A stretch of DNA of 29,085 nt, taken from IMG/VR virus record IMGVR_UViG_3300027770_000199, positions 1-29,085 of that record; one strand, 5' to 3'. This DNA comes from a virus. The notes below the pieces were generated by a model that was not told where the DNA came from, made no database searches, and saw nothing but the letters and a program-made list of their open reading frames with translations. A program made the translations under genes and the position numbers. Below, one piece after another: positions 10,693-22,754 of the stretch (its first letter is position 1; each line of letters opens with the position of its first letter).

Positions 10693-11523
10693 TTATTGCT
10701 TTAAAGCAACCTCAGTACTACTAACTTCTATATTACTGTTAATAGTTTCACCTTTAACTTCGGCTACATTTTCAGCCATTTTAAACTCGTCTAAAAGCCT
10801 TCCTGTATAGGTAAATTCACCATGGTGTGAGATATATTCATCTATTAGTCCGTACATTTTAATACCGGCATGTTTAGCTAGTTTACAGAAATAAAAATCT
10901 TCACCAGTATATGTCTTATCTTTAGGATCCCAATAAGTATCAAAGAAGTTGTACATATGAGGTCGTTTAACTAATTTACCATCAATTAATGTATGTTGGT
11001 CTATTGTAAATTCTGGATACTCTTTTATTAGTTTATCAAACGTTGCTCTTTTAATTAACATACATCCTGATGGGCCTCTGTCTAATTCTATAAATCCATT
11101 ATCTACATCTATTTTTTTAGGATCTTTTAATGATAAGGTATATTGGTTTCCTAAAAGTTTTGGGTCTAATTCACTACCATCTTTTAATCTTGCTTTCATT
11201 TTTTCAGAATCCATTGATTTAATTGGATATGGAATTAATGTAATGTCTTTATCATAAGCTATTAAACGTTCTATAGATTTATAACTAAATGAAATATCTG
11301 AATCTATAAATAATAAATGTGTACAATCTGATTGTAAAAAAGCAGCTACACATAATTGTCTTCCTTGTGTAACTAAACTACTTTTCATTACTTGAAACAT
11401 AATAGGTATTTTTCTTACAAAACATTCTTTTTGAAATTCAAGACATGCTTTGAAGAAATGGATTGATACATCACTATGTACTGGTGTACCTACAAATATA
11501 CGAACAGGTGAATTAGATGCCAT
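10693..11523 (-). CDS. Glycosyltransferase, GT-A fold with DSD motif
   Basis: 276 residues. The start RIFVGTPVHSDVSIHF is the first Rossmann-like strand. The metal/nucleotide-sugar site is HLLFIDSDISFS (D74, D76). Downstream RGPSGCMLIKRATF and TGEDFYFCKLAKHAG supply acceptor-side residues (E-D pair), and a late HHG follows. This order is typical of phage GT-A glycosyltransferases related to GT2/Anp1-like enzymes. The last ~25 residues are a polar tail. It overlaps the GT-B enzyme at 11513-12427 by 11 bases, so the two are made together and may act in sequence on one glycan. Target is unknown; virion protein, phage DNA or host surface polysaccharide are all possible. Confidence 0.82.
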   Translation of the reverse strand: MASNSPVRIFVGTPVHSDVSIHFFKACLEFQKECFVRKIPIMFQVMKSSLVTQGRQLCVAAFLQSDCTHLLFIDSDISFSYKSIERLIAYDKDITLIPYPIKSMDSEKMKARLKDGSELDPKLLGNQYTLSLKDPKKIDVDNGFIELDRGPSGCMLIKRATFDKLIKEYPEFTIDQHTLIDGKLVKRPHMYNFFDTYWDPKDKTYTGEDFYFCKLAKHAGIKMYGLIDEYISHHGEFTYTGRLLDEFKMAENVAEVKGETINSNIEVSSTEVALKQ

Positions 11524-12427
11524 TTAAAAATCTCTCCCAATATTGTTTAATTACATTCCAATGATAAAACTGATTATAATATTTCATTTGAAATTTAATC
11601 TTATCGTCTTCTACACTTTTTACGATCTCAGGTAAAGCATCTATAGCATAAGCGAACTGATCCGCTAGTTGTTTTTTATCAGTTAAATATGGAATATATA
11701 TTGGAAAATCTGCACAAGTTTCATATAAAGCTCCGTTGTTAGTAACAACCCCTAATAGTCCACAAGCTAAAGCTTCAATAGCAGCTATACAAGAAGTTTC
11801 TTCCCAATGATTAGGATAAACAAATGCATCATAAGTATGTAATATTTTTACTAATTCATTGTGGTGTAAAAAACCTTTGTAATTAACATTTTTTAATGAC
11901 TTAGCTTTTTCATATAAATTTATAAAGCCTTTATCATTAGCTTCTTTAAATTGGTCTCCATATATTTGAGTGCTTGAATAAACATCTAGTTCTACTTTAT
12001 CAGATTTAACTAATTCCATAGCATCTAATAAAACATCTAAACCGCGCCAAGGAGTTGATGTATAAACTAATCTTATTTTATCTTTTGGTTTAAATTCTTG
12101 TTTTAATATAAGGTCGCTATCAAAACCATTCTTAATAACTAAACATCTTTCTGTCGGTATTTTAAAAAAATATCTATACTTCTCAAAACACCAATGTGAA
12201 TTAAATACATACCAATCATACTTTCCATGATTAAATGAATTTTTAAACCAAGGATGAAGATTGGCTTGGTCATAACTATTTTGAATCCAAAGTACATTAG
12301 TCTTATCTACTACAACTGGAGTCTTTTCTGGAATAGATGTTGTAAGGTTTATTTTATTTAATAAATCACTAGATACATGTTTCTTAAGGTACTCTAACTG
12401 AATCTCAGTTCCGCCGAATGGTTGCAT
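11513..12427 (-). CDS. Glycosyltransferase, GT-B fold (GT4-like)
   Basis: 304 residues. It is short for a GT4 because the N-terminal acceptor domain is reduced. The N-terminus MQPFGGTEIQLEYLKKH resembles the 'GGxE' acceptor-loop element usually found early in GT4 enzymes. VFNSHWCFEKYRYF and VIKNGFDSDLI mark the domain linker. The donor domain has LVYTSTPWRGLDVLLDAM, YKGFLHHNELVKILHTYDAFVYP and finally EETSCIAAIEALACGLLGVV, equivalent to the E-x7-E sugar-nucleotide motif. A TAATG junction with the 73-residue gene upstream (1-base overlap) supports the start. It is likely paired with the adjacent GT-A enzyme. Confidence 0.85.
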   Translation of the reverse strand: MQPFGGTEIQLEYLKKHVSSDLLNKINLTTSIPEKTPVVVDKTNVLWIQNSYDQANLHPWFKNSFNHGKYDWYVFNSHWCFEKYRYFFKIPTERCLVIKNGFDSDLILKQEFKPKDKIRLVYTSTPWRGLDVLLDAMELVKSDKVELDVYSSTQIYGDQFKEANDKGFINLYEKAKSLKNVNYKGFLHHNELVKILHTYDAFVYPNHWEETSCIAAIEALACGLLGVVTNNGALYETCADFPIYIPYLTDKKQLADQFAYAIDALPEIVKSVEDDKIKFQMKYYNQFYHWNVIKQYWERFLNGI

Positions 12428-19254: not shown

Positions 19255-19283
19255 ATTATATAAGTTTTAGGCTGCTATATCAA
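19255..19283 (-). promoter_or_regulatory. Sigma70-like promoter driving fibre gene at 18145-19245
   Basis: On the minus strand TTGATA (19278-19283) is followed at exactly 17 bp by TATAAT (19255-19260): 5/6 and 6/6 matches to the consensus. The predicted start lies a few bases before the ATG at 19245, giving an almost leaderless or very short leader. The -35 sits inside the last codons of the upstream gene. Confidence 0.55.
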
Positions 19284-19920
19284 CCACTGTCCAAGTACCA
19301 GTTGTATTAGTATTAACCACCTGCCAAGCATAAATATAAGGTCTTCTTGTAGATGCTGTCATATTTACTCCAGTAACTAAAACATTACTATTAATTACAA
19401 AATTTACTGTTCCTGTAGTTGTATTTAAAATATTTCCAATAACATCTACGTCTATTCCAACAGTAGATTGAGCTTGTCCTATTGCAGTTTGCAATAAGTT
19501 AGTTGATAAATTTACATTAGCATCAGCTTGAACTTGTTCATTGCCTAAAGCTGTTACTAATAAGTTAGTACTTACAAATACAAGAGTATTTACATCAATG
19601 CTTTCATTTCCTAAAGCTGTTACTAATAAGTTGGTACTTAAAAATACCTCTGTATTAAGATCTATAGATACAGTGTTAACTGTAGATTGAATTAAATTTG
19701 TATTTAATAATGTGTTAGCATCAGCTGTTACAGAAATTGTATTTACAGTAGAAATAAGTTCTACTTCAGCTCCTGCAGCAACAAAAATGTTACCTCCTGC
19801 TGCAATAGATACACTAGAAACTGCAGTAGTAGCCTCTACGCCTGTAACTTGTACTTGTGCATTAATTAGACCTTCAGCTGAGAAAGGTGCTTCTGCAAAT
19901 GCTGTTGCTCCAAAAAACAT
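19267..19920 (-). CDS. Repeat-containing fibre protein (22-residue repeats)
   Basis: 217 residues. N-terminus MFFGATAFAEAPFSAEG is a short, recognisable phage-structural start. Residues 58-167 consist of five consecutive 22-residue repeats with consensus [A/T]xxNxxxxxNxxVxLSTNLLxT (for example units at 80-101, 102-123 and 124-145). The two central units are nearly identical at DNA level (exact match starting at 19544 and 19610, 66 bases apart). The strand-turn regularity suggests a beta-solenoid or elongated fibre. The C-terminus INSNVLVTGVNMTAS... ending GTWTVVDIAA may be a capping domain. TAGGA Shine-Dalgarno and an extended -10 promoter precede it. Confidence 0.72.
   Translation of the reverse strand: MFFGATAFAEAPFSAEGLINAQVQVTGVEATTAVSSVSIAAGGNIFVAAGAEVELISTVNTISVTADANTLLNTNLIQSTVNTVSIDLNTEVFLSTNLLVTALGNESIDVNTLVFVSTNLLVTALGNEQVQADANVNLSTNLLQTAIGQAQSTVGIDVDVIGNILNTTTGTVNFVINSNVLVTGVNMTASTRRPYIYAWQVVNTNTTGTWTVVDIAA
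19420..19749 (-). repeat. Five tandem 66-bp units (22-residue protein repeat)
   Basis: Units at residues 58-79, 80-101, 102-123, 124-145 and 146-167 of the 217-residue protein keep perfect 22-residue phase with no indel. Units 2-4 share STNLL; units 3 and 4 share ALGNE. DNA identity is highest between units 3 and 4 across CCTAAAGCTGTTACTAATAA. Confidence 0.85.
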
Positions 19921-19997: not shown

Positions 19998-20591
19998 TTA
20001 ATTAACGAAGCTTTTTTGTAAGAAATTAAAGGAAACTGATATCCTTATATCATTACTTTCATTAGGATCTACCCAATGATTTAACCAAGAGGGGAACATT
20101 ATAAGTCTTCCTGCAAGTGGTTTATAGTTTAAAATTCTATGTGTATGAAGCGGTAATTGAACGTTTTGTTTTCTTCTTGGCATTACCATTAATGAAACAG
20201 ACTTTGGATCTTCTAAAAATAAGTTACCACATTTTTCAGGAGCTTTAATATAATATACACCAGACCATAATGAATTAGGATGTATATGAGGTTTATTAGC
20301 TCCTCCTGGTGGATTAATATTTGCCCACATATTACCTAAAAAAGGTTCTGAATCTAAACCTTCACTATTATAAATATTAAGTTGTGCTTGAAATAATATA
20401 TTAACTAATTCTTTGTACTCTTCTTTTTGATGCATATCTGTAGGGGAATGCCAACCTTTAGAATTAGTCTTTGTTATACCTTTGTCTTTTTCAGACCATC
20501 TTATTACATTTTTTTCTAAATGTTCATTTAATTTTTCATTACCAATATCTACTACGTAAACAGGTGTTGCAAAAAGTAAATCTAAATTCAT
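19998..20591 (-). CDS. 2-oxoglutarate/Fe(II)-dependent oxygenase (PF13759/TIGR02466-like)
   Basis: 197 residues. The start MNLDLLFATPVYVVDI is the usual beginning of this family ('LFaTPvy'). Core motifs: MWANINPPGGANKPHIHPNS, with H102 and H104 the first metal ligands, then WSGVYYIKAPEKCGNLFLED. The distal end is GRLIMFPSWLNHWVDPNESN with H172, and DIRISVSFNF with R183 for 2-oxoglutarate. All expected active-site positions are present and the length is normal. Family knowledge: found widely in marine phages; substrates unproven. It is the last gene of the coupled five-gene cassette (ATGA overlap with the nucleotidyltransferase at 20588-20591). Confidence 0.88.
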   Translation of the reverse strand: MNLDLLFATPVYVVDIGNEKLNEHLEKNVIRWSEKDKGITKTNSKGWHSPTDMHQKEEYKELVNILFQAQLNIYNSEGLDSEPFLGNMWANINPPGGANKPHIHPNSLWSGVYYIKAPEKCGNLFLEDPKSVSLMVMPRRKQNVQLPLHTHRILNYKPLAGRLIMFPSWLNHWVDPNESNDIRISVSFNFLQKSFVN

Positions 20592-20941
20592 TTATTTTCC
20601 TTCATTTGTTGTCTAATTTTAGTAGCAGATATTTCTTGTATTTCTTTTGGAAGAACAATCTCTTCTATTTTATATCCAACATCTCTACCGTAACAAATAT
20701 TTGTAATGTTTGGAACTTTTACAACGTCAAATTGACCAACGTAGTCTTTAAGCTTTTCTTCAATTCTTTTTTTTATATCTTCAAATACAAATGGATTATT
20801 GTCTGTTTGAGGCATGGTTCTTACCATTATACAAACTTGTCCTGTCTTTTTTAGAATCTCTTTAAATAAAGCTAAGTGACCATCATGAAATGGTTGCCAT
20901 CTACCTAACATCTGTGCAGTTGGTTTAGAGTAATCTATCAT
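20588..20941 (-). CDS. HxGH-superfamily nucleotidyltransferase (cytidylyl/adenylyltransferase-like)
   Basis: 117 residues. The nucleotide-binding GRWQPFHDGHL contains the HxGH signature (H19, H22), and ISATKIRQQ (104-112) is the ISxTxxR motif that closes the ATP/CTP site. Both are diagnostic of the superfamily that includes NMN and pantetheine-phosphate adenylyltransferases, glycerol-3-P cytidylyltransferase and ATP sulfurylase. It is minimal in size, far shorter than classical ATP sulfurylase. ATG 20941 has an excellent Shine-Dalgarno (AAAGGAGATAC) lying within the end of the kinase gene, so the 17-base overlap is real. Pairing with the CysC-like kinase is, to my knowledge, recurrent in marine phages; the joint substrate is unknown. 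Confidence 0.85.
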   Translation of the reverse strand: MIDYSKPTAQMLGRWQPFHDGHLALFKEILKKTGQVCIMVRTMPQTDNNPFVFEDIKKRIEEKLKDYVGQFDVVKVPNITNICYGRDVGYKIEEIVLPKEIQEISATKIRQQMKENK

Positions 20942-21314
20942 GTATCTCCTTTATAATATTATCGTAATTAAAATCTTTTATTTCAAAATCTACTTTTTTA
21001 GGTTTTTCAAATACTTTATTAGTATCCTCAAATCTTCCTTTATCAATTGTATTCATCCAAATTTTCATATCATAGAAAGATCTATAAGATTCAAATGGAC
21101 AAACAAAATCTACAACTACATGATTAACTGCAAGATCACACATTGTCATCATACGATTAGCCTGTCTTTTACGACCATCTTCTGTGAAGTCCCAGTCTTC
21201 AAATAGTTTTCTAATATCATCAGCATTAAAATGAGGTATTTTTTTACCTTCAATTAATTTCTTTGCGAAAGTTGTTTTACCAGATCCTGGTAATCCAAAT
21301 ACTAAGATTTTCAT
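20925..21314 (-). CDS. CysC-like P-loop kinase (APS-kinase family)
   Basis: 129 residues against ~180-200 for typical CysC. Walker A is GLPGSGKTT (7-15). NADDIRKLFEDWDFTEDGRKRQANRM (30-54; two motifs joined) aligns with the GDNVR...LGFSxxDRxENIRR region of APS kinases. VVVDFVCPFESYR aligns with the following Walker-B-like strand. FEKPKKVDFEIK matches the YExPxxPDLxI end. The invariant first Gly-Asp is Ala-Asp here. The shortening removes part of the lid. It may phosphorylate adenylylsulfate to PAPS, but a different nucleotide or metabolite substrate is quite possible given the altered motif. It is coupled to the upstream coiled-coil gene by an ATGA overlap (21311-21314). Confidence 0.78.
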   Translation of the reverse strand: MKILVFGLPGSGKTTFAKKLIEGKKIPHFNADDIRKLFEDWDFTEDGRKRQANRMMTMCDLAVNHVVVDFVCPFESYRSFYDMKIWMNTIDKGRFEDTNKVFEKPKKVDFEIKDFNYDNIIKEIHDRLL

Positions 21315-21982
21315 TTTAACTTTTTCATAGCTTCCGCAGGAGGTAATAAAACACCTTCTTTTGAAAGTCTATTAATAGTTTGTAATGGGCCAAGTACATT
21401 TATAACTTCAGCTTGTGAAGAAGATGTACCTAATGTTTTTGCTCTATTTTCTAATGCTAATTTTAATGATTCTGTTTGATGTGTATTAACATTTTTTGTA
21501 TCAAAAGTTTGATCATCTAATTCTTTCTTTAAAGTAGACCATTGTTCTATTTCTCTAATACGATCTTTAGCAACTAATTCCATATTAGCTTTGCCATATA
21601 CTTTTTGTTCTAATTCTATTTCTAATAATTCTTTTTCTAGATCATCAGTTTCTGTTAATAATTTTCTTTCTATCTTTTTAATCTCAACATCATTTTTACG
21701 ATAATCAAAAGATAGTGTCATTAAGTTTTCAAAAAATACATTCTGTTCTCTTACACACTGCCAGTACTTGGCAGCTTTAGTTGGAAACTTTCCATCATTT
21801 AAAACAGATACTCTCATCTCAGTTTCTGTTCTAAATATTTGTTTTTTAGACCAAGTGTCTTTTAATTCTGTTGTTAAATCTTTAAATTTTTTAAAATCTT
21901 CTATATCTAATATTTGATTTAGATATTCTCCAGACTCTTGTAATAAAGGTTTTATACTTCTTTTTTCTATTTGATCTGACAT
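21311..21982 (-). CDS. Coiled-coil phage protein of unknown function
   Basis: 223 residues, almost entirely helical and charged. Residues 30-60 (DFKKFKDLTTELKDTWSKKQ) and ~95-165 (KNDVEIKKIERKLLTETDDL, LEKELLEIELEQKVYGKANM) have coiled-coil heptads. Between them a conserved-looking block FRTETEMRVSVLNDGKFPT, then AAKYWQCVREQNVFF, stands out; I believe it recurs in marine phage genomes, with no function known to me. No membrane segment. ATG 21982 follows the sulfotransferase stop by one base. It could be a scaffold or adaptor for the surrounding enzymes or an assembly factor; this is speculative. Confidence 0.7.
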   Translation of the reverse strand: MSDQIEKRSIKPLLQESGEYLNQILDIEDFKKFKDLTTELKDTWSKKQIFRTETEMRVSVLNDGKFPTKAAKYWQCVREQNVFFENLMTLSFDYRKNDVEIKKIERKLLTETDDLEKELLEIELEQKVYGKANMELVAKDRIREIEQWSTLKKELDDQTFDTKNVNTHQTESLKLALENRAKTLGTSSSQAEVINVLGPLQTINRLSKEGVLLPPAEAMKKLK

Positions 21983-21983
21983 A

Positions 21984-22754
21984 TTAAAATACTATGTGTT
22001 TATACTTATCAATAAAGCGCTGTGGAATCAAGTGATAATATGGATTATCTTCTTTTTTTATACCGTCTGTTCTTAGGGTATGTAAGTTATTAACATACAT
22101 AGAATCGTTATATTTAATGCCGTTTAATTCAAATTGTGAAAGGTTATTAAAGTCGTGTTTACTAAAATAGGGTATTTTTAAAAAATCATAAACCTTAGTT
22201 ATTTCGGTTTTTGGGTCATTTATAAGATCATCATATTTTACAAAACAAGCCATATGTTTATTTTCTTCTTTTAATAGCTCTTGAACAGCCATTGCTTCTT
22301 TAGCTAAACCTCCTTTAGCGTCTACTAATAAAGATATTTTTTGTTCCATAGTTAAATGAGGTAAATAATTTTCTTTTACATATAGTTTTACAAAAGAAGC
22401 TATAACATCTAAAAAGTTTCTTAATAAAACAACACATTTTAAAGGTTGTCCTAAATGCTTTTTCATTAACATCATGTTTCCATAAGTTGAAACTGGACCT
22501 CTATCAATAATATACTTTTGTTTCCAATTTTTATAATAAGAACTATAAACATTATCTAAAACATTATCTAATGATTTGTGATCTGGATAATTTTTAAATC
22601 CTAAATCTTCTTTAATTAAAAAAATAACTTTCATTATTTCTAATGTCATACTGTTTGCAGTAACTGCAATGTTTGGATTTTGATTCATTAAAGATGCAAA
22701 TATAGTATTGCCTGAACGTGGCATTCCTACAAGGAAAAAGATTTTTTTAGACAT
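21984..22754 (-). CDS. Sulfotransferase (PAPS-dependent, P-loop)
   Basis: 256 residues. The 5'-phosphosulfate-binding loop is FFLVGMPRSGNTIFASLM (residues 7-23), the standard sulfotransferase variant of the P-loop ('PRSGTT/S'). The 3'-phosphate-binding motif is VVLLRNFLDVIASFVKLY, with Arg112 and Ser120 in the expected RxxxDxxxS spacing. Length and spacing between the two motifs are normal. The family transfers sulfate from PAPS to hydroxyl or amino groups of sugars, lipids or Tyr residues. The next genes encode a CysC-like kinase and a nucleotidyltransferase, so donor supply could be encoded locally. The ATG is enclosed in a 20-bp palindrome. Acceptor unknown. Confidence 0.85.
   Translation of the reverse strand: MSKKIFFLVGMPRSGNTIFASLMNQNPNIAVTANSMTLEIMKVIFLIKEDLGFKNYPDHKSLDNVLDNVYSSYYKNWKQKYIIDRGPVSTYGNMMLMKKHLGQPLKCVVLLRNFLDVIASFVKLYVKENYLPHLTMEQKISLLVDAKGGLAKEAMAVQELLKEENKHMACFVKYDDLINDPKTEITKVYDFLKIPYFSKHDFNNLSQFELNGIKYNDSMYVNNLHTLRTDGIKKEDNPYYHLIPQRFIDKYKHIVF

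Follow-up and report, generated by a model that had tools for sequence, protein, structure and literature searches.

Can a phage carry, beside its fibre genes, its own route for activating sulfate and transferring it to a product? This question is raised by the 29-kb linear viral record from IMG/VR analysed here (IMGVR_UViG_3300027770_000199, 29,085 nt, hereafter the window), in which five open reading frames (ORFs), all on the minus strand, overlap or abut by 1-17 nt. They encode a sulfotransferase (ST), a coiled-coil protein (CC), a P-loop kinase (KIN), a small nucleotidyltransferase (NT) and a 2-oxoglutarate (2OG)-Fe(II) oxygenase (OX). A preliminary description of this DNA had proposed that the five form a sulfation cassette. 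The packed ORFs are found where it placed them, and the motifs it quoted are present (GMPRSGNT and R112...S120 in ST, GRWQPFHDGH (HxGH) and ISATKIR (ISxTxxR) in NT). The proposed activation-and-transfer route is supported for the core of NT, kinase and ST, through cellular context and phage co-occurrence, and is unsupported for the oxygenase. In this virus of water bacteria the gene set probably makes 3'-phosphoadenosine 5'-phosphosulfate (PAPS) with a very small first enzyme and hands it to the ST encoded beside a fibre gene.

In the proposed mechanism NT would couple sulfate to the AMP moiety of ATP, the ATP sulfurylase reaction, giving adenosine 5'-phosphosulfate (APS). KIN would phosphorylate APS at the 3'-OH to give PAPS, from which ST would transfer the sulfate to an acceptor formed late in infection. 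As a guess, that acceptor may be a residue of the tail fibre or a glycan on a surface, with the kelch fibre as a possible target. The use of sulfate by NT, of APS by KIN and of the resulting PAPS by ST is predicted from family, fold, conservation and context. What was observed is the order of the genes, their families and folds, their conservation and co-occurrence, and the position of KIN-NT within a cys operon of cells. On these we consider it likely that KIN and NT together form a PAPS synthase made of two proteins, which feeds ST. OX and CC are neighbours of the route, and their membership in sulfation is unsupported.

The five ORFs are not chance readings, since IMG/VR holds 192 relatives of NT and 31 of ST, and the dN/dS of KIN and NT against relatives is 0.01-0.09 at dS of 0.7-1.6, i.e., strong purifying selection. 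No DNA-level relatives of the window were found among GenBank phages. The ST/CC junction is a 1-nt gap, and overlaps of 4, 17 and 4 nt are found at CC/KIN, KIN/NT and NT/OX, respectively. No frameshift joining the two proteins need be invoked in the window, as NT has its own start with GGAG upstream.

ST matches Sulfotransfer_1 at 7.3e-15 (55.5 bits against a curated cut-off of 22) and Sulfotransfer_3 at 3e-11. The 5'-phosphosulfate loop GMPRSGNT is at residue 10, and the 3'-phosphate motif is R112...S120. By Pfam and motifs ST is thus assigned as a PAPS-dependent sulfotransferase. The usual gene order in relatives is kelch fibre, CC, ST, KIN, NT and oxygenases; ST immediately precedes KIN in 93 of the 112 loci that have both, and several ST clusters, below 45% identity, are found with KIN-NT. 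To avoid selecting on cassette genes, relatives were also chosen by a virion gene, and in this anchored sample the count covered the 33 loci that extend 5 kb or more upstream. Both ST and KIN-NT are present in 4, KIN-NT alone in 1, ST alone in 1 and neither in 27 (Fisher p 6e-4, kinship ignored). Co-occurrence of the five genes had been named as a check of the proposal; it is seen for ST and the pair, and OX and CC are not specific to the pair. Clustering of ST with phages lacking the pair had been named beforehand as grounds for abandoning the proposal; in a tree of 72 STs, the window falls among phages having KIN-NT.

KIN scores just above the Pfam APS_kinase cut-off (23.8 against 21.1 bits, a weak match) and lies below the NCBIfam apsK equivalog cut-off (22.3 against 138.7 bits). 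It is named APS-kinase-like because of this divergence. An AlphaFold2 model and a conservation count were based on 71 relatives. The model (predicted local distance difference test score, pLDDT, 93.7) has only APS kinases as its top PDB entries, with Z 16.2-13.2 and, for the match at Z 16.2, a root mean square deviation of 2.1 over 129 residues; Kti12 (Z 13.1) and gluconate kinase (Z 12.7) come after them. When the KIN profile was compared with PDB sequences, APS kinases were likewise the best single-domain matches (4.8e-11). Invariant in the 71 sequences are D32, R35, F43, R48, Q51 and P73. R35, F43 and R48 occupy the positions that we take to bind APS in known APS kinases (the Arg of DGDNxR, the Phe of GFS and the Arg of DR), and an Asn is replaced by the invariant Gln51. 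The preliminary description had counted ADD in place of GDN as a weak point of its CysC-like kinase. DGDN is indeed not kept, but the loop, NAD-x-x-R, retains the catalytic Asp (D32) and the Arg (R35) in all 71 sequences, which probably answers the point. Fold and conserved residues thus support KIN as an APS kinase, with APS as its predicted substrate.

NT, at 117 aa, is about one third of the length of Sat, and had rightly been called very short for an ATP sulfurylase. It matches CTP_transf_like (28.9 bits against a cut-off of 21) and is nearest to NadM by sequence and fold, although it stays below the NCBIfam NadM cut-off (34.9 against 127 bits). The AlphaFold2 model (pLDDT 89.8) has a nucleotidyltransferase fold, which matches nicotinamide mononucleotide (NMN) and phosphopantetheine adenylyltransferases about equally, near Z 11. 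The invariant motifs of the family are GR-QP-H-GH, YGR-VGY and ISAT-IR, of which YGR(D/G)VGY is unique to it. About 22 middle residues and the C-terminal part of NadM are missing. No match to PF01747 (Sat) was found at E up to 1. The HxGH, GR(D/G) and ISATxIR of NT stand in the order of Sat (HxxH, GRD, IS(A/G)TxxR), though profile comparison does not align them. Sat is absent among the fold matches listed, which is not counted as evidence against kinship with Sat. NT also has no match to CysD, whose PAPS_reduct fold is different, and so is not placed with CysD/CysN. An apparent similarity to Crov588 (6nyr) was rejected as an artefact of short repeats. NT is therefore a cut-down NadM-type adenylyltransferase and no member of Sat or CysD/CysN. 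Because it belongs to no known ATP sulfurylase family, its function must be argued from genomic context.

The context that carries most of this argument is cellular. NT was found in 1 of 397 other Pseudomonadota genomes in an even sample, and in 12 of 385 in a class-level, alphaproteobacterial sample. Four of these 12 genomes, from one small alphaproteobacterial order, have, consecutively, a siroheme/SUMT gene, a NIR_SIR reductase, CysH, DUF2061, KIN and NT (Pfam assignment of the cys-operon genes was run on one of the four). In a fifth genome DUF2061 and CysH lie beside NT, these being the neighbours checked, and in a sixth the contig ends right after CysH, so that CysH is present in all six. 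No CysD was found in the six genomes, as no PF01507 protein beyond CysH passes the cut-off. Sat is absent from five of the six; in the remaining one it lies away from the operon, inside a capsule-type cluster (L226, genome G419, contig C19, with a NeuB-like gene). KIN is the sole APS_kinase match in the five genomes that carry KIN-NT. In ordinary bacteria canonical Sat can stand beside CysH. Thus KIN-NT occupies a slot of the cys operon from which the standard sulfate-activating enzyme is missing. In addition, genome G561, which is larger and has CysD-like and CysH-like genes, encodes a KIN-NT fusion some 2.7 kb away from a Sulfotransfer_3 gene.

A similar gap is reported in SAR11. In strain HTCC1062 no cysDN or sat is reported, but aprBA, cysQ and a cysC are (PMC5069961), and cysC and aprA have the same distribution over seven SAR11 strains (Table 3 of PMC5069961). 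NT relatives, about 70% identical, are common in SAR11 genomes, with KIN as well in most of the loci fetched. Since two of the three SAR11 genomes searched have no APS_kinase match other than KIN, the published cysC is presumably KIN. AprA is over the cut-off in two of the three. In the SAR11 loci L118, L120 and L146, KIN is parted from NT by a pair of genes, about 590-760 codons long, that have signal-peptide-like starts and repeat-like sequence. In one SAR11-like genome (G664:C1:283943-284289) NT is in two pieces, by frameshift or sequencing error.

NT is thus a strong candidate for a minimal ATP sulfurylase that has gone unrecognised. With somewhat more reserve, we lean to the wider proposal that it founds a third ATP sulfurylase family, of about 117 aa, far smaller than Sat or CysDN and without recognisable sequence kinship to them. 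Streamlined alphaproteobacteria would use it for sulfate assimilation, SAR11 probably together with AprBA, and many phages for their own sulfotransferases.

Several observations weigh against these proposals. The nearest solved relatives of NT are NMN and phosphopantetheine adenylyltransferases and not Sat, and hhalign of NT with Sat aligns the HxxH stretch alone, with a probability of 12.5%. The genomes with the cys operon look like incomplete drafts (0.6-1.1 Mb), so that single gene absences mean little and agreement across the order weighs more. In the third SAR11 genome no AprA is over the cut-off, and in SAR11 KIN-NT lies, by reading of the sequences, among dimethylsulfoniopropionate/betaine-type catabolic genes without a sulfotransferase. 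Many of the sampled phage families with KIN-NT have no recognised sulfotransferase nearby, the ST model being narrow; in these groups the pair lies, as judged by eye, beside replication genes, glycosyltransferases or carbamoyltransferase-like genes. Conversely, a clade of ST phages has no KIN-NT nearby. In the ST tree the STs without the pair are this one nested clade of 10 and one row cut by a contig end, and the clade is best read as loss.

Of the alternatives, the one that survives best is that KIN is a true APS kinase and NT performs some other adenylyl or cytidylyl transfer, the host supplying APS and the phage encoding only the KIN-ST step. The closest relatives of NT, the NadM and phosphopantetheine adenylyltransferase enzymes, would fit it, as would the loci in which other genes separate KIN and NT. 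It is nevertheless unlikely, given that genomes whose operon has no standard ATP sulfurylase carry NT behind KIN and near CysH, that fusions of the two proteins exist, and that within shared loci the conservation of NT equals or exceeds that of ST and OX. Quite improbable is the synthesis of another cofactor by KIN-NT, either in the manner of NadR, from nicotinamide riboside through NMN to NAD, or as an ADP- or CDP-activated alcohol. NadR consists of a kinase and an NMN adenylyltransferase, and GRxQPxHxGH is common to NT and NMN adenylyltransferases; against this, KIN has the fold of APS kinases and keeps their APS-binding positions, NT lacks the middle and C-terminal parts of NadM, and the pair is found in cys-operon and sulfotransferase contexts. 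That the cassette boosts host sulfate assimilation instead of sulfating a product is likewise quite improbable: phage cysC and cysH are read as assimilatory auxiliary genes in PMC10914622 and PMC9529941, and KIN-NT accompanies CysH in cells, but the sulfation role fits the window better because any PAPS made here would arise next to a sulfotransferase, within the fibre region, and because neither CysH nor a sulfite reductase was recognised in those window ORFs that were tested.

The reading of KIN and NT as a PAPS synthase can be set beside known systems. As in the rhizobial NodP-NodQ-NodH cassette (CysD, CysN(C) and sulfotransferase), sulfate activation genes lie next to a sulfotransferase; the window differs in that activation would be by KIN and a 117-aa HxGH protein and not by CysD/CysN, and in being phage-borne, in a fibre region. 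Like PAPSS and the bifunctional Sat/CysC proteins, KIN-NT combines an HxxH/HxGH nucleotidyltransferase with an APS kinase, sometimes fused, but NT has only about a third of the length of Sat and no PF01747 match, and in KIN-NT fusions KIN comes first. With NadM-type NMN adenylyltransferases NT shares the core fold, GRxQPxHxGH and ISxTxxR, and it differs in the missing segments and in YGR(D/G)VGY. Short viral APS kinases are also known as phage cysC auxiliary genes (PMC9529941, PMC10914622), a likeness of description; the modelled proteins have 109-135 residues (PMC9529941), and in the portions available these papers mention neither an NT partner nor a link to a sulfotransferase. A literature search for a new kind of ATP sulfurylase found nothing. 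Phage cysC is already known; the NT partner and the sulfation link were found nowhere in the literature. The gene set is a variant of the known cassette for activating and transferring sulfate, and it contains a strong candidate for an ATP sulfurylase of a kind not recognised before. If this is true, it fills a gap in how very abundant water bacteria handle sulfur, SAR11 having been described without sat and cysDN (PMC5069961), and phage 'cysC', so far read as a helper of assimilation, would be part of a self-sufficient machine for the sulfation of virions or host surfaces.

The pair had been called recurrent in marine phages, which is correct and too narrow, as it is also common in SAR11 cells and occurs in phages of non-marine habitats. 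Of 275 loci, 33 encode KIN and NT as one fused protein, and PHROG family 10255 is such a fusion. Natural fusions are found in Stenotrophomonas and Clavibacter phages; among cultured phages only such distant fused forms were found, with no sulfotransferase annotated in the regions read. Locus L350 has two NT copies and one KIN, with a NodU-like carbamoyltransferase gene (by eye) between KIN and the second NT. The small membrane protein DUF2061 abuts KIN-NT in at least 10 phage loci, and a single ORF in L336:2189-2827 matches both KIN and DUF2061, a natural fusion. DUF2061, thereby a partner in common with KIN-NT, also stands between a sulfotransferase and the cysD-cysN genes in nod clusters of Mesorhizobium, two of which were seen. 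No sulfur genes were seen in five other DUF2061 plasmid contexts read, and thus DUF2061 holds only partly as a general marker of sulfation (two contexts with, five without).

OX, which is translationally coupled in the window, matches TIGR02466 at 7e-46 (156.7 bits against a cut-off of 62.5) and 2OG-FeII_Oxy_5 at 2e-29. The preliminary description had the oxygenase create a hydroxyl acceptor for the sulfate. This is unsupported, because 41 of the 80 relatives sampled by structural gene have a TIGR02466-type oxygenase, most of them lacking KIN-NT, and a specific link to the pair was rejected on this anchored sample. Relatives have one to three different 2OG oxygenases, several mutually unrelated, around or between KIN and NT. 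Up to three lie consecutively between NT and OX in L006, L012, L038, L010 and others, and other 2OG-like genes separate KIN from NT in L007, L014, L033, L049, L060 and L070. A GIY-YIG/NUMOD homing-endonuclease-like gene (by eye) lies between two oxygenase genes in L021:1199-1771 and L027:6992-7567. CC accompanies the kelch fibre/ST neighbourhood also in phages without KIN-NT, and is probably not part of sulfation.

The cassette is flanked by the kelch fibre-like gene, 34 bp upstream of ST, on one side and by small repeat-rich virion-like genes on the other.

Table 1. Features of the window, with their positions and the basis of each assignment.
Feature	Position	Strand	Basis
ST, PAPS-type sulfotransferase, 256 aa	21984..22754	(-)	Pfam, motifs, 31 viral relatives, tree
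CC, coiled-coil protein, 223 aa	21311..21982	(-)	Weak phrog_1409 match (1e-5), the sole PHROG match
KIN, APS-kinase-like P-loop kinase, 129 aa	20925..21314	(-)	Pfam, AlphaFold2 fold, invariant residues
NT, minimal HxGH adenylyltransferase, 117 aa, proposed ATP sulfurylase	20588..20941	(-)	CTP_transf_like, NadM nearest, AlphaFold2
OX, 2OG-Fe(II) oxygenase of TIGR02466 type, 197 aa	19998..20591	(-)	NCBIfam profile
Kelch-repeat fibre-like protein, 1336 aa	22789..26799	(-)	ORF and repeats; recurrent neighbour in many relatives
Repeat-rich virion-like protein, downstream of OX	19267..19920	(-)	ORF; no PHROG match
Glycosyltransferase (phrog_2170), elsewhere in the structural region of the window	11513-12427		

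Between the window and locus L005, ST, CC, NT and OX are 94-98% identical and KIN just 64%; two KIN types are exchanged inside an otherwise constant cassette.

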